From NCBI RefSeq assembly GCF_002090135.1, contig NZ_BBRL01000004.1, positions 1,178,001 through 1,242,000 of the forward strand: a stretch of DNA of 64,000 bases, in the 5' to 3' direction. Positions 30,976-42,478 of this stretch are shown here, piece after piece. The stretch comes from Demequina sp. NBRC 110055. GTDB lineage: Bacteria > Actinomycetota > Actinomycetes > Actinomycetales > Demequinaceae. Numbering within the stretch: position 1 is the stretch's first letter; each line of letters begins with the position of its first letter. The position numbers and the translations under genes were made by a program. Below the pieces are notes generated by a model. That model was given only the letters and a program-made list of their open reading frames with translations. It had not been told where the DNA came from and did not search any database.

Positions 30976-31030
30976 TTTGCATGCCCTCTGCGCTGCCTCG
31001 TGAGAGGGCTGGCCCCGGGTCTGAAGCCCC

Positions 31031-31036
31031 TATCCT
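31031..31036 (+). promoter_or_regulatory. -10 box for a leaderless nucS transcript
   Basis: TATCCT ends seven bases before the GTG start of nucS, and there is no Shine-Dalgarno. The spacing suggests transcription begins at the start codon. Confidence 0.5.
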
Positions 31037-31043
31037 GGTGGGC

Positions 31044-31739
31044 GTGAGAGTTGTGATCGCCCGCTGCGCCGCCCGCTACTCCGGAAGGCTCAGCGCGCAC
31101 CTGCCGTTGGCAACGAGGGCAATCATGCTCAAGGCCGATGGCTCGGTGCTGCTGCACTCGGACGGCGGGTCCTACAAGCCGCTGAACTGGATGGGCCCGC
31201 CGTGCACCACGCGCGAGGTCGCGCCGTCCGAGGCGCAGACGGAGGCCGGCGTCGAGGCCGTCTGGACGGTTCAGCACGACAAGACCGACGACCGCCTCGA
31301 GATCGAGATTTACGAGGTGCTCGCCGACACCCAACATGACCTAGGCGTCGACCCCGGGCTCATCAAGGACGGCGTCGAGGCACACCTTCAGGAGCTGCTC
31401 GCGGAGCAGATCGCCCTGCTCGGTGACGGTCACACGCTGGTCAGGCGCGAGTACATGACGGCGATCGGCCCTGTCGACATCCTCGCGAAGTCGCCCTCGG
31501 GCGGCTCCGTCGCGGTCGAAATCAAGCGCCGCGGCGAGATCGACGGCGTGGAGCAGCTCACGCGCTACCTCGAACTGATGAACCGCGACCCGTTGCTGAG
31601 CCCCGTCGAGGGCGTGTTCGCCGCGCAGGAGATTAAGCCCCAGGCGCGCGTGCTGGCCCAGGATCGGGGGATTCGCTGCCTGATTCTCGACTACGACGCG
31701 ATGCGCGGCGCCGAGGACCCCACCACGCGCCTGTTCTAG
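31044..31739 (+). CDS. nucS: Mismatch-specific endonuclease NucS/EndoMS
   Basis: A 231-residue nuclease that cleaves both strands at mismatches. It serves as the non-canonical mismatch repair enzyme in actinobacteria, which lack MutS/MutL. The catalytic motif is visible in [11 protein letters not shown] and [20 protein letters not shown] (Asp, Glu, Lys, Gln). The C-terminus TTRLF resembles the beta-clamp-binding tail known for this family. GTG 31044 is preferred; it matches the family N-terminus (VRVVIARC) and the -10 box position. Its stop overlaps that of the convergent esterase within CTAG. Confidence 0.94.
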
Positions 31740-36222: not shown

Positions 36223-36642
36223 CTAACTCCAGGAGTTTCCCGCCTCGAGGCGCTGCTGCAGGGCCTGGCGCATGGGCATGGACTCGCCGTCTCGCCCGCC
36301 CTTGCCCAATTCGAGCGGCGGCTCGGCCGGCGGCACCTGAGCGCCGCTCAGGCGCCCGCGCAGGCTCGACGGCACCGAGAGCACGTAGAACTCGCCGTCG
36401 ACGCCGACCGCGACCGAGCGATCGTGCTTGAGGTACCAGCCGGTGAGATCCGTGCGGTAGCGGGCCTTCCCGTCATACGTGCGCGCCGTGAGCCGCTCGG
36501 GCTCGACGCCCGCCGCGACGGCATCGGCCACGAACTCGCGCACGAGCGCCGCCGCCTGCGCCACCTCGGCTAGCCGACGCCGCTCCATGGCGTCGGCCTG
36601 CGCGAGGCGGCGGTAGGTGGCGTCGTCGCGAGAGGCGTCCAC
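36223..36642 (-). CDS. Uncharacterised protein downstream of the hendecad coiled-coil gene
   Basis: A 139-residue soluble protein that I do not recognise. It begins MDASRDDATYRRLAQADAME, with an N-terminal helical part (to about 45). A beta-rich middle follows (YDGKARYRTDLTGWYLKHD, VAVGVDGEFYVLSVP), then a Pro-rich link and a short C-terminal helix. The middle segment resembles small domains that bind or sense a ligand, but no motif is decisive. The GTG start is five bases after the coiled-coil gene stop, so the two are co-transcribed and may act together. It ends six bases from the convergent hydrolase. Confidence 0.75.
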   Translation of the reverse strand: MDASRDDATYRRLAQADAMERRRLAEVAQAAALVREFVADAVAAGVEPERLTARTYDGKARYRTDLTGWYLKHDRSVAVGVDGEFYVLSVPSSLRGRLSGAQVPPAEPPLELGKGGRDGESMPMRQALQQRLEAGNSWS

Positions 36643-36647
36643 AGGGG

Positions 36648-39488
36648 TCAGTCCGCGGTTGCCGCAGCCTCGGCGGCCTCGTGCTCCTGGCGCAGGGCCG
36701 ATGCCTTGGCGAGGCCAGCGATCGGGTCGGCACCCAGGAGGTTGCGCAACTCGTCGAGGTAGCCGGTGATGGACTCGCGCTGACGGTTGAGCTCGTCGAC
36801 CTCGCGCGCGGCCATCGTGCGCTCACGCTCGGCGTCGGAGACGGCCTCCGAGATGATCGCCTCGGCGTGTTCGCGGGCCTCGGAGACGATCTCGTCGGCG
36901 TTGTTGCGCGCGTTGGTGAGCAGCGTCTGGGCGTGGACCTCGGCGTCGCGGCGCGTGACCTCGGCGCGCTCCAGCGCGCTCGACAGCCGCTCCTCGGCCT
37001 CGTCGGCGCGCACACGCGCGTCCTCGACCATGGCGGCGGTCTCGGCCTTCGCCTCCTCGTGACGCGCCGTGAGGTCCTTCTCGGCCGCTTCGCGGCGCTG
37101 CGCGATCTCGATCTGCAGGTCCTCGCGGGCGCGGCGGGCCTCCTCGCGGGCGGCGTCGGCATCGGCGTTACCGTCGGCGCGCGCCTGGTCGGCGTCACGC
37201 TGGGCGATGCCCATGACGTGCTTGGCCTCCTGCTGCGCGGCGGTGAGGCGCTCCTCGGCCTCGTCGTGTGCCGCCTGCACGGTGCGGGCGGCGTCGCGGT
37301 CGGCGCCCTCGCGTGTCGACAGGGCGTACGCGTCGGCCTCCCGGCGGGTGGTCTCGTCGTAAGCGTCGACCTCGGTGCGGGTCGTCGCCGCGTAGTCGTC
37401 CGCTTCGCGGCGAGCGGCGGCGGCGTCATCGTCGGCCGCGGTGCGCGTTGCAGCGTCGTACTCATCGGCGGCGCGACGCGTGGCCTGGTCGTACAGGTCC
37501 GCGTCCTTGCGCAGCTGCCGGCTCGCGGTTTCGGCGGCCGAGCGGGTCGCATCCGCGTAGTCCTCGGCCCCCTTGCGGGTGGCGGCGTCGTACTCGTCGG
37601 CCGCCGCGCGGGTGTCGGCTCCGTAGGTGTCGGCTTCGGCGCGGGTAAGGGCGCTGTAGTCGTCGGCGGCGGTGCGGGTCTCGGCGCTGTACTCGTCCGC
37701 GGCGCCGTGGGTGGCGTCACGGTAGTCGTCGGCGTCGCGGCGCGTGACGCCCGCGTACTCGTCCGCCTCGCCCTGCACCCGCTCGCGGTAGGTGTCGGCC
37801 TCAGTGCTGGTGGCGGCGCGGTAGTCGTCGGCCTCGGCGCGGGTGGCGGCGTCGTACTCATCGGCCGCCGCGCGCGTGTCCTCCGAGTACGTGTCCGCTT
37901 CGGCGCGCGTGCGCCGCCCGTAGCGGTCCGCGTCGGACTGGGTGGCCTCGCGGTACGCGTCCGCGTCGGCGCGGGTCGCCTCGGAGTACGTGTCAGCCCC
38001 CACGCGGGCGTCGAGCGCGTAGGCGTCGGCCTCTGCCGTGGTGAGCGAGCGATAGTCGTCGGCCTCTGCACGCGTGACGTGACGGTACTCATCGGCCTCG
38101 GACCGTACGGCCTCGAGGTGAGCCTCGGCATCGGCCCGCGTGGCCTCGTCGTACGCGTCGGCAGCCTCGCGCGCGTCGCGGGCGTCCTCATCCGCCTCGG
38201 TCCTTGCGGTGGCCGCGTACTCGTCGGCACCGGCGCGGGTGGCGCGGTCGTAGTCGTCGGCCGCAGCCTCGACCTCGGCGCGGTGGGCGGCGGCGGCCGC
38301 GGTGACCTCGTCCAGGTGCGTCTGCGCGGCGGCGCGCACGTCGGCGGCGTCGGACTCGGCGCTCTCACGGGTCGCGGCGTCGTAGGCATCGGCATCGGCG
38401 CGCGTGCCGGCCGAGTAGCGTTCCGCCTCCTCGCGGGTGGCGCGGTCGTAGGCGTCGGCCTCGCCGCGAGTCCCGGTCGCGTAGTCCTCCGCATCGGCCC
38501 GCATGGCCTCGTCGTATTCGTCGGTGTCAGCGCGCAGCGACGCCACCTCGGCGGCGACCGCCGCTCGCAGGTCGCGCGCATCGGTCTCGGCCGATGCCCG
38601 GGTCGCGTCGGCCTCCCGGTTCGCCTGGGTGAGGAAGGCGTGGGCCTCGTTACGCAGGTTGGCGGCGTCGGCCTCTGCCGTCGTACGAATGTCGGACGCC
38701 TCCGCGTCGGCCGCGGACTTGGCATCGCGTGCCTCGCCCTCGAGGCGCTTGGCCTCCGCGCGGGCCTCGGCGAGCTCCCGCTCCGCCTCGGCCAGCACGC
38801 GGTCGGCCTCCGCGGCCGCGTCGGCGGCGGTCGTGTCCGCCTCGGCGCGCGCGGCCTCGAGCAGCTCCTGCGCCTCACGCTGGGCGGCGACGCGGGTCTC
38901 GGTGGCTTCGCGTTCCGCCGTGGCACGCAGGGCGTGAGCCTCACGGTCGGCGCCGGCCTTCAGCTCGGCGACCTCGGCGTCGATTCCGGCCTTGACGCGC
39001 TCGGCGTCGCGGCGGGCCTTCTCGACCGTCTCGGCGGCCGCGCGCTGGGCCGCCTCCTTGACCCCGGTGGCCTCGTGCTCGGAGGCGGTGCGAATCTCCT
39101 CGGCCTCGCGGCGGCTCTGCGCGAGGATCTCGGCGACCTCGTTGTCGGCGCGGGCGCGCAGCTGCTGCGCGGCGACCTGGGCGCGGGCGACGGTGTCCTG
39201 GGCGTGGGTGTTGGCACGCGCGACGACGTCGGAAGACTGCTCCTCGGCCGAGCGCAGCAGCTGCTCGACGCGGGCGCCCAGACCCTTGTAGGTGGGCTGC
39301 TCCGACTCGCGCAGGCTCTTTTGTGCCTCGTCGAGCGACGTACGGGTCGTGTCGGCGTCCTTGCGTGCCTGCTCGGCCGCCTCGCGAGCCTCCTTGACCG
39401 CATCCTCAAGTCGCGCCACGTGGGCGGCGACCGCCTCGCGGTCGTAGCCGCGCATGGCAACGGGGAACGGAAGGTTGTCCTCTGGCAT
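36648..39488 (-). CDS. Giant hendecad-repeat coiled-coil protein with DivIVA-like N-terminus
   Basis: 946 residues, almost all helical. The start MPEDNLPFPVAMRGYDREAV resembles the membrane-targeting tip of DivIVA and of Streptomyces Scy/FilP-type scaffold proteins. Residues about 25-324 are a mixed heptad/hendecad coiled coil rich in Ala, Glu and Arg. Residues 325-731 hold 37 consecutive 11-residue units with consensus Y-x-x-A-T-R-x-x-A-D-x. Residues 732-946 are a further coiled coil ending in a Glu/Ala tail. ATG 39488 is chosen for AAGGAG five bases upstream; GTG 39494 is also in frame. A cytoskeletal or polar scaffold role is inferred. LEA-like protectants also use 11-residue repeats. No enzymatic motif is present. 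Confidence 0.85.
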   Translation of the reverse strand: MPEDNLPFPVAMRGYDREAVAAHVARLEDAVKEAREAAEQARKDADTTRTSLDEAQKSLRESEQPTYKGLGARVEQLLRSAEEQSSDVVARANTHAQDTVARAQVAAQQLRARADNEVAEILAQSRREAEEIRTASEHEATGVKEAAQRAAAETVEKARRDAERVKAGIDAEVAELKAGADREAHALRATAEREATETRVAAQREAQELLEAARAEADTTAADAAAEADRVLAEAERELAEARAEAKRLEGEARDAKSAADAEASDIRTTAEADAANLRNEAHAFLTQANREADATRASAETDARDLRAAVAAEVASLRADTDEYDEAMRADAEDYATGTRGEADAYDRATREEAERYSAGTRADADAYDAATRESAESDAADVRAAAQTHLDEVTAAAAAHRAEVEAAADDYDRATRAGADEYAATARTEADEDARDAREAADAYDEATRADAEAHLEAVRSEADEYRHVTRAEADDYRSLTTAEADAYALDARVGADTYSEATRADADAYREATQSDADRYGRRTRAEADTYSEDTRAAADEYDAATRAEADDYRAATSTEADTYRERVQGEADEYAGVTRRDADDYRDATHGAADEYSAETRTAADDYSALTRAEADTYGADTRAAADEYDAATRKGAEDYADATRSAAETASRQLRKDADLYDQATRRAADEYDAATRTAADDDAAAARREADDYAATTRTEVDAYDETTRREADAYALSTREGADRDAARTVQAAHDEAEERLTAAQQEAKHVMGIAQRDADQARADGNADADAAREEARRAREDLQIEIAQRREAAEKDLTARHEEAKAETAAMVEDARVRADEAEERLSSALERAEVTRRDAEVHAQTLLTNARNNADEIVSEAREHAEAIISEAVSDAERERTMAAREVDELNRQRESITGYLDELRNLLGADPIAGLAKASALRQEHEAAEAAATAD
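37296..38516 (-). repeat. 37 tandem 33-bp coding units (11-residue hendecads)
   Basis: The 1221 bases equal exactly 37 units of 33 bp with no insertion or deletion. Thirty units begin with Tyr; the others begin with Asp, His or Ala. Units 19-21 and 27-29 are closely alike at protein level, which suggests segmental duplication of an eight-unit block. Most units differ at DNA level, so the array is old but still under repeat-type selection. Confidence 0.85.
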
Positions 39489-39575
39489 TGTCACTCCTTG
39501 GGCGCGGCCGTCTGAATGGCGTGCGCAGTCCGCTCCAGGGTAATGGGCGCGGCCCGAGGCACAAAGCCGCGAACT

Positions 39576-39604
39576 GGGACGTTGGGGCCTGTGTCTCCTA
39601 GAGT
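39576..39604 (+). promoter_or_regulatory. Candidate promoter of the 39.6-42.5 kb operon
   Basis: GGGACG and TAGAGT are spaced 17 bases. The start of the first gene follows 26 bases later, with AAGGAGGA between. The 141-bp gap is shared with the divergent coiled-coil gene. Confidence 0.45.
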
Positions 39605-39629
39605 GGACAAGAACATAAGGAGGACCGAC

Positions 39630-40577
39630 GTGAGTGTGAGGACGACCGCGCTGATCGCGGGCGTGATCGGAGTGCTGCTGTTAGCAGCGGGTCTGATCGC
39701 CGATGCGCAGCGGCCGCCGCGCGAAGTCAGCGCCGAAGCAGAGCTCAGCACCGCGGTGGTGGTGTACAGCCCCGAGATGATCGCCTTTGCCGCGGACAGC
39801 ACCATCGGGATTGAGGGTGACGGCGACCTCGTCGCCGTCACGGCCCGGCCCGTCGATGCCGATGCCTGGCTCGCCGAGCGCGAGGCGACCGCCGTCACCG
39901 GCCTACCGGAGTGGGAGGTGCTGTCGACTGAGGCATATGCGGCCGGCGCCGCGACCTCCCCCAGCCCGTCGCCGTCGGCCTCCGCGAGCGCCTCCGCGAG
40001 CGCCTCCGCCGAGCCGAGCGCCTCCGCCTCCGCGGAGGAATCTGCCGATGCCGAGGCAAGCCCCTCCGCATCGGCCTCGCCGAGCGCCGAGCCCGAGGTG
40101 GACCTGCTCACCGAGACGTCGACGGATCACTGGCGCGAACAGTGGGACGGCACCGACCGGCTCGAGATCGTCGCGTCGGACGTCCCCGACGGTGAGGTGT
40201 TGGTGGTGATGGCCCGCGACGGGTCCGCGCTGTCGAGCACCGACGTCGGCTTCGAGCGCGAGGTCAACGACGGCTGGATCACCCCGCTGATCTGGTGGGG
40301 CATCGTCCTCACGGTCGTCGGCGTCATCGCTCTCATCCTGCGCTTCCTCGACCTGCGTCCCGTCCAGGCTCGTTACGAGGAGTGGGTGGCCTCCCGCCAG
40401 CGCACCGGCGACGACGAGGACGACGCCCGTCCCGGCTCGCGACGTGCGCGCCGTGCGGCCGGTGAGCACCTGCCCGAGGCGAGCCTCGACGACGAGCCGG
40501 CCACGGCATCGGCCGCCTCCCCACCCACCGAGCCCACGCCCGACGACCCGACCACGGACAAGGAGGACCGCGCATGA
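39630..40577 (+). CDS. Two-TM membrane protein with Ser/Ala-rich linker
   Basis: A 315-residue unrecognised protein. One N-terminal membrane helix (about 7-25) leads to an extracytoplasmic part of about 190 residues. That part contains a low-complexity segment (about 108-155) of SPS, SAS and SAE repeats encoded by near-identical GCCTCCGCG units. A second membrane helix (about 218-240) precedes a charged cytoplasmic tail with a 14-mer repeat copy (40501-40514). The GTG start has AAGGAGGA upstream. The lipoprotein gene overlaps its stop (ATGA). The architecture suggests an envelope protein; no known domain is seen. Confidence 0.78.
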   Translation: MSVRTTALIAGVIGVLLLAAGLIADAQRPPREVSAEAELSTAVVVYSPEMIAFAADSTIGIEGDGDLVAVTARPVDADAWLAEREATAVTGLPEWEVLSTEAYAAGAATSPSPSPSASASASASASAEPSASASAEESADAEASPSASASPSAEPEVDLLTETSTDHWREQWDGTDRLEIVASDVPDGEVLVVMARDGSALSSTDVGFEREVNDGWITPLIWWGIVLTVVGVIALILRFLDLRPVQARYEEWVASRQRTGDDEDDARPGSRRARRAAGEHLPEASLDDEPATASAASPPTEPTPDDPTTDKEDRA

Positions 40578-41554
40578 ACCGCATCGTGAAGGCGACCGGG
40601 CTCGCCGCCGCGTCCGCCCTGGTACTGACGGGCTGCGTCGCCGAGGTGCCGGCGCCCGTGACGTCCGCGCCGCCGCTGGCCGAGGCCGCCACGCTGCTCG
40701 ACGCCCAGTCCTCGCGCGTGATCGCGGACACCATGGACGAGCTGGCAAAGGCCGACGAGGAGAAGGACGCCGACCTGCTGACCGACCGGGTGGGCGGCGA
40801 CGCCGTCACCATCCGCGAGGCGCAATACACGCGCGCCGACGATGACGACGAGACCCCGGTGGCGCTACCGAGCGACCAGCAGGCGGTCTATGTGTCCGCC
40901 GCGGACACCTGGCCACGCACCCTCGCGACGGTCTCGGAGCAGGCGTCCGAGGACGAGACCCCGGTGATGTACCTGTGGGTGCAGGAGTCCATCGACGACG
41001 ACTACCAACTGCGAGGCTGGGCGCATATGATCCCCGGCGCCACCGTGCCCGCCATGCCAGGGAGCACCACGGGAGCCGAGCAGTTGACGCTCGAGGACGA
41101 CGCGCTCGACCCGACGGCCGATGCCGTGCTGACCGACTACCTCACGCTGCTACGCGAGGGGGCGGACTCCGACCTCGACGAGAACTTCGGCGAGGACTCC
41201 TACCGGGCGCAGTTGTTTGCCGCGCGCGACACCCTCACCGAGGCCGCCGAGGAACAGGACGGCGAGTACGTCGACACCATCCAGACGGTCACGGACGACA
41301 CCTATGTGATGGGCACGGCCGACGGCGGCGCGCTGGTGTTTGCGCCGCTCGAGATCACCTCGTCGTTTACGGTCGAGGATGCGACGGTGTCGATCTCCGA
41401 GGCCGATGAGCCGCTGCTGGACGGCGAGCTCGACGACACGGTGACGCATCACTATCTCGACATGATCGTGCTCGCCATCCCCGGGCCCGATGCGGAGGGG
41501 CTTCCCACCGTCGTCGCGGCCGACCACAACCTGATCCAGGTCTCCGACAGCTAG
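40574..41554 (+). CDS. Uncharacterised lipoprotein
   Basis: A 326-residue protein with signal peptide and lipobox LVLTGC, so it is anchored to the outer face of the membrane. The mature part is acidic, with a mixed alpha/beta pattern, and contains VMYLWVQESIDDDYQLRGWA. No catalytic motif is recognised. It is translationally coupled to the two-TM protein (ATGA) and followed after six bases by the YbbN-like gene. The three are probably one operon, and the two envelope proteins may form a complex. Confidence 0.8.
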   Translation: MNRIVKATGLAAASALVLTGCVAEVPAPVTSAPPLAEAATLLDAQSSRVIADTMDELAKADEEKDADLLTDRVGGDAVTIREAQYTRADDDDETPVALPSDQQAVYVSAADTWPRTLATVSEQASEDETPVMYLWVQESIDDDYQLRGWAHMIPGATVPAMPGSTTGAEQLTLEDDALDPTADAVLTDYLTLLREGADSDLDENFGEDSYRAQLFAARDTLTEAAEEQDGEYVDTIQTVTDDTYVMGTADGGALVFAPLEITSSFTVEDATVSISEADEPLLDGELDDTVTHHYLDMIVLAIPGPDAEGLPTVVAADHNLIQVSDS

Positions 41555-41560
41555 GAAGTG

Positions 41561-42478
41561 ATGACTGAAAAGCCCGAGGTGCCGCTGCGCGGCGCCCCCG
41601 ACCTGTCCCAGTTCGCCCAGCCCGCCCCGGCCGCTTCCGCGCCGGGCGCGGCCGGTGCCGCGGAGTTGCCCGCGCCCATCGACGTCACCGAGGCGAACCT
41701 CAACGACCTCGCCCAGCAGTCGACCGAGGTGCCGGTCGTCATCGTGTTCCTGTCGTCGGCCTCGCCGGCGTCGCGCGAACTCGTGGAGCGCATCCGGACG
41801 GTGGCGGGCTCCTACGAGGGTCGATTCGTCGTCGGGCGCTGCGACATCGACGTGCAGGGCGGCATCGCTCAGGCGTTGCAGATCACCGCGGTGCCGACGG
41901 CCGTCGCGCTCATCGCCGGCCGGCCCGCGCCGCTGTTCCAGGGCAATGCCGAGGAGGCGCAGATTCGCGACGTGCTGAACCAGGTGCTCGAGGTCGCCCA
42001 GCAGCACGGCGTGACCGGCACCGTGGCCGCTGCGGCCCCGGCCGCCGAGTCCGAGCCGGAGCCGCTGCCGCCGCTGCATCAGGAGGCCTACGACGCGATC
42101 GAGCGCGAGGACTACGACGCGGCCATCGCCGCGTACGACCAGGCGCTGCGCGAGAACCCCAAGGACCACGACGCCAAGGCCGGACGTGCCCAGGTGGCGC
42201 TGATGCAGCGCACCCGCACCCTCGACCTCGCGGCGGCGCGCAAGGCTGCGGCCGATGCGCCCACGGATGTCGACGCGCAAATGGCCGTCGCCGACCTGGA
42301 CGTGGTCGGCGGCCAGGTGGAGGACGCGTTCGCCCGCCTCATCGACGCCGTGCGCGGCTCAGCCGGGGACGAGCGCGAGAAGGTGCGTCTGCGCCTGGTC
42401 GAGCTCTTCGACGTGCTCGGCACGGCCGACCCGCGCGTGGCCGACGCCAGGCGTGCGCTGTCGGCGGCGCTCTTCTAG
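41561..42478 (+). CDS. YbbN-like thioredoxin-fold protein with TPR domain, lacking the CxxC site
   Basis: A 305-residue cytoplasmic protein. A disordered Ala/Pro N-terminus of about 40 residues precedes a thioredoxin fold (about 45-145), with VPVVIVFLSSASPASRELV where thioredoxins have WCxxC. No Cys is present at the active site, so it cannot be a redox enzyme. The C-terminal ~130 residues are tetratricopeptide-like helices (YDAAIAAYDQALRENPKDHD). Actinobacterial YbbN/CnoX homologues act as chaperedoxin-like holdases; that is the likely role here. ATG 41561 is chosen; GTG 41558 is an alternative. Confidence 0.88.
   Translation: MTEKPEVPLRGAPDLSQFAQPAPAASAPGAAGAAELPAPIDVTEANLNDLAQQSTEVPVVIVFLSSASPASRELVERIRTVAGSYEGRFVVGRCDIDVQGGIAQALQITAVPTAVALIAGRPAPLFQGNAEEAQIRDVLNQVLEVAQQHGVTGTVAAAAPAAESEPEPLPPLHQEAYDAIEREDYDAAIAAYDQALRENPKDHDAKAGRAQVALMQRTRTLDLAAARKAAADAPTDVDAQMAVADLDVVGGQVEDAFARLIDAVRGSAGDEREKVRLRLVELFDVLGTADPRVADARRALSAALF

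Follow-up and report, generated by a model that had tools for sequence, protein, structure and literature searches.

The gene at positions 36648–39488 (minus strand) of the window, by which we mean the whole 64,000-nucleotide stretch from Demequina sp. NBRC 110055 (contig NZ_BBRL01000004.1, positions 1,178,001 to 1,242,000 of the forward strand), is, on profile and locus evidence, the Demequina orthologue of FilP. FilP is the model bacterial intermediate-filament-like protein. In the window protein, the conserved end domains are separated by a rod of 565 residues, built from 11-residue (hendecad) units, 37 of which form an aromatic ladder. We consider it probable, taking all parts together, that this is a Demequina FilP with a rod of whole hendecad units which would serve as a polar scaffold, with a seam, a ruler function and a partner protein as further putative elements. 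The gene and its parts are as follows (residues are numbered from the ATG).

36648–39488, minus strand: filP orthologue, 946 amino acids (aa) from the ATG, which is the start used by relatives
36648–39494, minus strand: the same gene from an alternative upstream GTG start, 948 aa, taken from the list of open reading frames (ORFs)
39291–39488, minus strand: DivIVA-like tip and short heptad-like coil, residues 1–66, with MRGYDREAVAAH at residues 12–23 (helix 17–62 in the AlphaFold2 model)
38853–39290, minus strand: conserved first coil, residues 67–212, opening with the invariant break PTYKGLG (delimited by conservation, periodicity and AlphaFold2)
38517–38852, minus strand: less regular rod preceding the ladder, residues 213–324
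37296–38516, minus strand: aromatic hendecad ladder, residues 325–731, 37 units, 30 with Tyr at position 1
37167–37295, minus strand: rod following the ladder, residues 732–774
36702–37166, minus strand: conserved C-terminal helical domain, residues 775–929 (mean column identity 81%)

A plus-strand reading of this region (a 944-aa open frame) was rejected because GC content by codon position speaks for the minus strand (0.906 at the third position) and because the relatives encode the minus-strand protein.

The assignment to FilP is made because of a conserved bracket of two flanking genes, the presence of two domains in the same order, and a FilP query with a single match in the genome. The flanking genes are:

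30981–31739, plus strand: NucS
41558–42478, plus strand: thioredoxin-TPR (tetratricopeptide repeat) protein, which we take to be YbbN-like

Gene order in the window is ATP synthase, NucS, filP, YbbN-like, GlgB, GlgE. The two markers enclose filP in 12 of 12 genomes that have both, this one included (13 were compared; G044 is devoid of YbbN). The genome comprises 2.82 Mb on 14 contigs. Among named organisms, the N-domain has its closest relatives in Demequina strains (up to 96% identity), and Demequina is placed in Micrococcales. A family-level search found the gene in 46 of 47 genomes, again counting this one, and the N-domain profile (A3) matches 177 of 297 genomes of the order (threshold 0.001) and 78 of 296 of the class (1e-8). 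FilP orthologues are described as very widespread in actinobacteria (PMC4255298), and their occurrence in Demequina is therefore expected.

In three genomes of one genus (6.8–9.2 Mb), an A3-matching ORF of 311–312 aa directly adjoins an ORF of 1281–1293 aa, which is followed by a 146-aa ORF with a glyoxalase fold and then by a thiolase on the opposite strand. We take the two adjoining ORFs (loci L208–L210) to be Streptomyces FilP and Scy; genus and gene names are assumed from, among others, the N-termini and the order FilP, Scy, glyoxalase fold, thiolase, and the glyoxalase-fold ORF is presumably methylmalonyl-CoA epimerase. These loci agree with the FilP/Scy gene arrangement described in PMC9858780 and PMC4255298. 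At all three loci, the 312-aa FilP-type ORF is matched by A3 (4–5e-13) and by the C-domain profile A2 (4e-7 to 4e-5), with the same domain order as in the window protein. When Streptomyces-type FilP is used as a query against the genome of the window, the filP gene is the sole match (2.0e-8).

It could be argued that the gene is rather an orthologue of Scy, a large organizer of polar growth in its own right, given its length, its hendecads and a match to a Scy-type query (1.7e-6). This match is, however, weaker than that of the FilP query, and A3 matches FilP but not the Scy-type ORF at 1e-3. Twelve residues precede RGYD in the window protein, while Scy is reported to start immediately before this motif (PMC9858780). 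Furthermore, the ladder is uniform with 11-residue units and no 51-residue pattern is seen in the window protein, and filP adjoins a 139-aa gene and the gene for a divergently transcribed membrane protein, unlike scy, which is found next to filP. We regard a Scy orthologue as highly improbable. The original prediction had pointed to both FilP and Scy; the kinship is borne out by profiles and locus, with the correction that the protein is the orthologue of FilP.

DivIVA itself was also considered for the window protein and was rejected. A separate 291-aa DivIVA, above the Pfam cut-off, is encoded in the genome (contig C7), and the DivIVA profile PF05103 gives only 17.3 bits for the window protein (cut-off 28). 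Streptomyces-type FilP is likewise below this threshold (26.9 bits), and for the window protein the Wag31 equivalog model stays at 20 bits, with a cut-off of 260. The N-terminus had correctly been described as DivIVA-like, as a tip motif RG[YF]DxxAV is present in 40 of 40 FilP proteins from Demequinaceae. Searching the sequences of the PDB with the N-domain profile gave three rows at chance level, the best being lipoprotein 1kfm (E 0.045), and among them GpsB (4ug3, E 0.22), aligned at the RGY motif.

As expected of a member of the FilP/Scy group, a heptad-like tip coil is followed by a hendecad rod. The hydrophobic period is 3.51 (heptad-like) in residues 13–66 and 3.66–3.67 in residues 67–212 and in the ladder; over residues 213–324 it is less clear (3.60). 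The 11-residue periodicity extends past the ladder, with a period of 3.66 in residues 67–212. A helix rather than disorder had been anticipated, and the AlphaFold2 model has a helix at residues 17–62, a break at 63–66 and a helix spanning 67–919. In blocks of ten residues, its confidence (predicted local distance difference test, pLDDT) is 70–91 over residues 71–280 and 72–91 over 741–910, with low values in the ladder (see below). Across relatives, residues 1–212 and 775–929 are the conserved blocks.

The ladder (residues 325–731) consists of exactly 37 units of 11 residues without an indel. Position 1 is occupied by Tyr (30 units), Asp (3), His (3) or Ala (1), and our recount of these units agrees with the original one. 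Of all 33 tyrosines in the protein, 30 share one of the 11 phases (binomial probability 2.6e-27, corrected for 11 phases), and the ladder score is 23, compared to a maximum of 4 among 10,000 shuffles. When 514 Tyr units from Demequina relatives are combined, they give Y-x-x-x-T(.64)-R(.77)-x-x-A(.91)-D(.82)-x as a consensus, which is close to the YxxATRxxADx that had been derived from the window protein. Eleven-residue helical periodicity is also a property of group 3 late embryogenesis abundant (LEA) proteins. A LEA-like role in membrane coating or desiccation had thus been put forward as the main alternative, and we considered it together with that of an apolipoprotein-like amphipathic 11-mer. 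The periodicity and 40.1 bits for the Pfam Apolipoprotein model are in its favour. The cut-off of this model is, however, 90 bits, the Scy-type rod draws it as well (17.0 bits), the ladder is strongly acidic (net charge -57 over 407 residues), and the protein has a FilP locus and FilP end domains. No LEA model was among the profile matches of the window protein at E up to 1. This alternative was therefore given up as extremely unlikely.

When relatives are compared, rod lengths differ almost exclusively by whole hendecads, which answers the question about repeat numbers raised in the original prediction. The rod is defined as the stretch between the conserved N and C blocks (profile boundaries). 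Of 45 other genomes with a match, 42 were sampled (G035, G039 and G040, with broken contigs, were left out), and 40 of the 42 Demequinaceae loci entered the rod tables, omitting L037 and L063, in which the frame is split inside the gene. Outside Demequinaceae, 58 distinct rods of at least 16 residues were considered; rods of 0–1 residue, for which the two profiles meet or overlap, were not included (L199, L200, L208–L210, L213, L214). The duplicate loci L153/L192 and L157/L184 count once in the tallies of rod lengths and of 247-residue rods, and twice in the Tyr-phase tally of 45 rods and in the neighbour-gene tally. Among the 58 rods, 55 have a length of 5 mod 11, spread over ten lengths from 16 to 313 residues (exceptions: L188, L198 and L202). 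The 40 Demequinaceae rods have remainders of 4 (16 loci), 7 (13), 0 (7), 5 (2), 1 (1) and 3 (1). The large classes 4, 7 and 0 hold 11, 7 and 5 different lengths, respectively, and mostly follow the tree (a quick tree, computed without bootstrap). The window rod equals 51 hendecads plus 4 residues and is thus in class 4. Unbroken Demequinaceae FilP proteins have 443 to 1182 residues, with rods of 23 to 799 residues.

The alignments point in the same direction. The window ladder differs from each of its two nearest relatives by one 11-aa indel, and from four further relatives by gaps that sum to 55, 44, 66 and 88 residues, all multiples of 11. Collapse of repeats during assembly is unlikely to explain why lengths differ, because the 33- and 66-bp DNA repeats are diverged (62–82% matches in most rows) and because the genomes of three intact relatives consist of one contig each (G004, G034 and G037). 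Judged from these comparisons, the rod evolves by gain or loss of complete hendecads. That proteins of the FilP/Scy group vary in length is already known, since PMC9858780 gives a range of <200 to >1000 residues for them and describes FilP as expanded by hendecads.

A few rods deserve separate mention. In Demequina sediminis (a complete genome; L063:9257-11308) and in Demequina litorisediminis (L037:7476-10299), the reading frame of filP is interrupted within the gene, either by a sequencing error or by a real break. In the metagenome-assembled genome (MAG) HGW-Actinobacteria-4 (L067:6968-8299), FilP has 443 aa and is almost rod-less, with a C-terminal tail rich in Pro, Tyr and Thr. In L049 (8355-10745), a Demequina FilP, the 22-residue double unit YFSAKTAEADE-LHGAKVTEADR recurs with hardly any change, as if it had been amplified recently.

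The aromatic slot was tallied in 37 Demequina rods of more than 100 residues, which do not include that of the window protein. One hendecad phase holds nearly all Tyr (612 of 619) and Trp (82 of 86) and a part of the Phe (29 of 73), and at least five aromatic units are present in 33 of the 37 rods. Trp occurs mainly in the clade formed by Demequina silvatica, Demequina maris and Demequina soli. By these counts, the ladder is aromatic and not Tyr-specific. The Tyr stripe of the original prediction is thus real with respect to its phase, also in homologues, but the restriction to Tyr did not stand. Homologues without Tyr periodicity, which had been named as a refutation, do in part exist, since four of the 37 long rods have no ladder. 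It is conceivable that such a ladder, with a regular Tyr beside Arg and Asp, serves as a phosphorylation platform that regulates assembly, but in relatives this slot is also taken by Trp (82), Phe (29) and His, and we see hardly any likelihood for this option. Among the long rods without a ladder, those from Demequina aurantiaca (L052) and Demequina oxidasica (L053) have Glu-Leu units. The rod from the Demequinaceae MAG Ww84 (L068:7144-10179) has RIAxERxEHES hendecads, with 26 of 35 His in one phase, which differs from the aromatic register. The constant of the family is the hendecad register and not Tyr.

Across 45 Cellulomonas-like rods, a single phase accounts for 186 of the 193 Tyr. Among 35 distinct rods of the Cellulomonas type with 247 residues, position 1 is Tyr in 35 rods at unit 2, in 35 at unit 11 and in 32 at unit 15 (plus 2 Phe and 1 His), in 22 at unit 5 (plus 4 Phe and 2 His), and in 23 at unit 8 (plus 5 Phe, 1 Trp and 4 His). 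All other units together hold four aromatics. Against this background, the Demequina ladder looks like a lineage-specific filling-in of an older, sparse pattern.

It might be that the rod requires helicity only, and that the aromatic type of unit and the changing copy numbers became fixed through unequal recombination between 33-bp units, without having a function (neutral repeat drift). This would fit with unit types that switch by lineage (Tyr, Tyr plus Trp, Glu-Leu, His-rich) while the ends stay conserved, with rods from 23 to 799 residues, and with DNA arrays of 33 and 66 bp. Yet near species, whose units differ at other positions, agree best in the slot: between the window protein and L031, identity over aligned units is 1.00 at position 1, 0.95 at position 9, 0.84 at positions 6 and 10, and 0.41–0.51 at positions 3, 4, 7 and 11. 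Tyr, Trp and Phe interchange in the slot, and each of the 35 distinct 247-residue rods has kept its aromatics at units 2 and 11. We consider neutral drift unlikely, although it is the most serious of the alternatives.

Turning back to a functional ladder, the residue at position 2 depends on that at position 1. In Cellulomonas-like rods, V, T, I or L is found at position 2 of 473 of 572 acidic units, compared to 16 of 177 aromatic units, and Ala rises with the aromatic residue (141/177, 0.80, versus 84/572, 0.15). In Demequina, V, T, I or L is present in 228 of 472 acidic versus 70 of 723 aromatic units, and L, I, V or M at position 5 also falls (266/472 versus 153/723). This suggests that the ring would take the place of the position-2 residue in the hydrophobic seam. 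Two registers are possible, a seam of positions 1, 5 and 9 with Tyr inside, or of positions 2, 5 and 9 with Tyr at the edge. The first is tentatively favoured because Val/Thr is lost at position 2.

Streptomyces FilP is reported to be recruited by DivIVA at the poles and to form an intermediate-filament-like scaffold (PMC6599971, PMC4255298). By analogy, the tip of the Demequina protein may be recruited to DivIVA at growing poles, pairing of its chains may give a parallel coiled coil that is nearly straight and about 130 nm long, and the ends may join rods into an intermediate-filament-like scaffold. A hendecad unit is about 1.6 nm long, from the textbook rise of a helix. Rings of Tyr, Trp or Phe that replace Val/Thr of position 2 in the seam would stabilize helix pairing or lateral bundling, and the number of units would set rod length and hence the spacing or repeat of the filament. 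Both the scaffold function and the ruler role are thus predicted by analogy. It is tempting to speculate further that this is an undescribed coiled coil with a near-continuous aromatic seam (Tyr or Tyr plus Trp), with one ring per 1.6 nm over about 60 nm, and that tuning of filament spacing by single hendecads makes it a quantised, evolvable polar ruler; we put this forward tentatively, as possible rather than likely. In a different scenario, the aromatic strip would bind beta-glucan or another linear polysaccharide, and cellulose affinity has indeed been reported for the coiled coils of FilP, Scy and DivIVA (PMC6224456). Aromatic residues are not named in the searched text of that paper, Streptomyces FilP binds without such a ladder, and the window FilP is presumed to be cytoplasmic, so that we judge this to be very unlikely.

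Several observations speak against the polar scaffold with an aromatic seam or against its FilP identity. The pLDDT is only 38–72 over the ladder, and pairing is invisible in a single-chain model. The strict published motif GY[DN]xx[QE]V[DN] (PMC9858780) is found in Streptomyces-type FilP but in 0 of 40 Demequinaceae proteins; this can be read as a derived loss within the orthologous group, but calls for caution. A2 touches the Scy-type ORF weakly at 1 of 3 loci, and the Scy-type query matches filP, even if less strongly than the FilP query. Ala at position 2 is not enriched with the aromatic residue in Demequina (317/723 versus 209/472, 0.44 versus 0.44), and the seam counts come from related sequences, so that their p-values are not independent tests. 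Four of the 37 long Demequina rods (L052, L053, L068 and L070) are devoid of a ladder, which is thus not essential to the family, and three Demequinaceae rods have only 23–27 residues. Experiments on any Demequina FilP were not found.

The gene adjacent to filP is a candidate for a partner:

36223–36642, minus strand: conserved neighbour of filP, 139 aa, 5 bp downstream

It had been noted as co-transcribed and a possible partner, and its place as a neighbour is conserved: a homologue lies directly behind filP, in the same orientation, at 42 of 42 Demequinaceae loci and at 50 of the 67 other loci of the family, some of which are incomplete. Homologues span Demequinaceae to Cellulomonas and other families. 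The model (pLDDT 93.1) has a 42-residue helix (residues 2–43) and a small mixed, beta-containing domain. A sequence search of the PDB gave nothing convincing (best E 0.3), fold comparison gave 0 Foldseek matches at E<=0.001 and, on re-examination, none of 136 with Z>=2, and Pfam produced only stray rows over 55 relatives. The encoded protein is likely a FilP partner. On the other side of filP, 39516-40577 codes for its divergent neighbour, a putative membrane protein with a long low-complexity stretch rich in Ser, Ala and Glu, which is kept beside filP in Demequina. The protein encoded at 40574-41554 weakly matches the family of lipoprotein SCO2278, with 42 bits at a cut-off of 210, and its place is kept in Demequina and Cellulomonas-like loci.

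Demequinaceae thus offer a natural series with the same ends, rods of 23–799 residues in 11-residue steps, and unit types that are Tyr, Tyr plus Trp, Glu-Leu or His-rich. With this series, it can be tested if rod length sets the filament repeat and the size of the polar zone, and how an aromatic hendecad seam affects coiled-coil geometry. The conserved 139-residue neighbour, whose predicted fold is unmatched, is added as a candidate partner of FilP. Among the literature matches listed, no title or abstract start dealt with an aromatic FilP ladder or with variation in unit number, subscription journals being mostly outside the coverage.

Among known systems, group 3 LEA proteins share the 11-residue periodicity but differ by the conserved end domains, the FilP locus and the lack of any LEA model match in the Demequina protein. 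DivIVA/Wag31 resembles it in the glycine-aromatic-Asp tip and the following coil (sub-threshold profile), but the genome has its own, separate DivIVA of 291 aa. Scy (SCO5397) is also a very long chain dominated by a hendecad-type coiled coil; its repeat was reportedly first described by Walshaw in 2010. Scy is described as having a 51-residue repeat (PMC3718342), whereas Demequina FilP has uniform 11-residue units with an aromatic slot. FilP from Cellulomonadaceae and relatives has the same neighbours, end domains and hendecad register, but its rod is mostly 247 aa long (35 of the 58 distinct rods considered above), with aromatics almost only at units 2, 5, 8, 11 and 15. FilP from Streptomyces coelicolor (SCO5396; AbpS of Streptomyces reticuli) shares the NucS-filP-YbbN bracket, the RG[YF]D tip and the succession of first coil and C-terminal helical region. 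The tip continues with AV-A in Demequina and with QV-D in Streptomyces-type FilP, which has 311–312 aa and no inserted rod, whereas Demequina has a 565-aa rod with its 37-unit ladder between the two domains.

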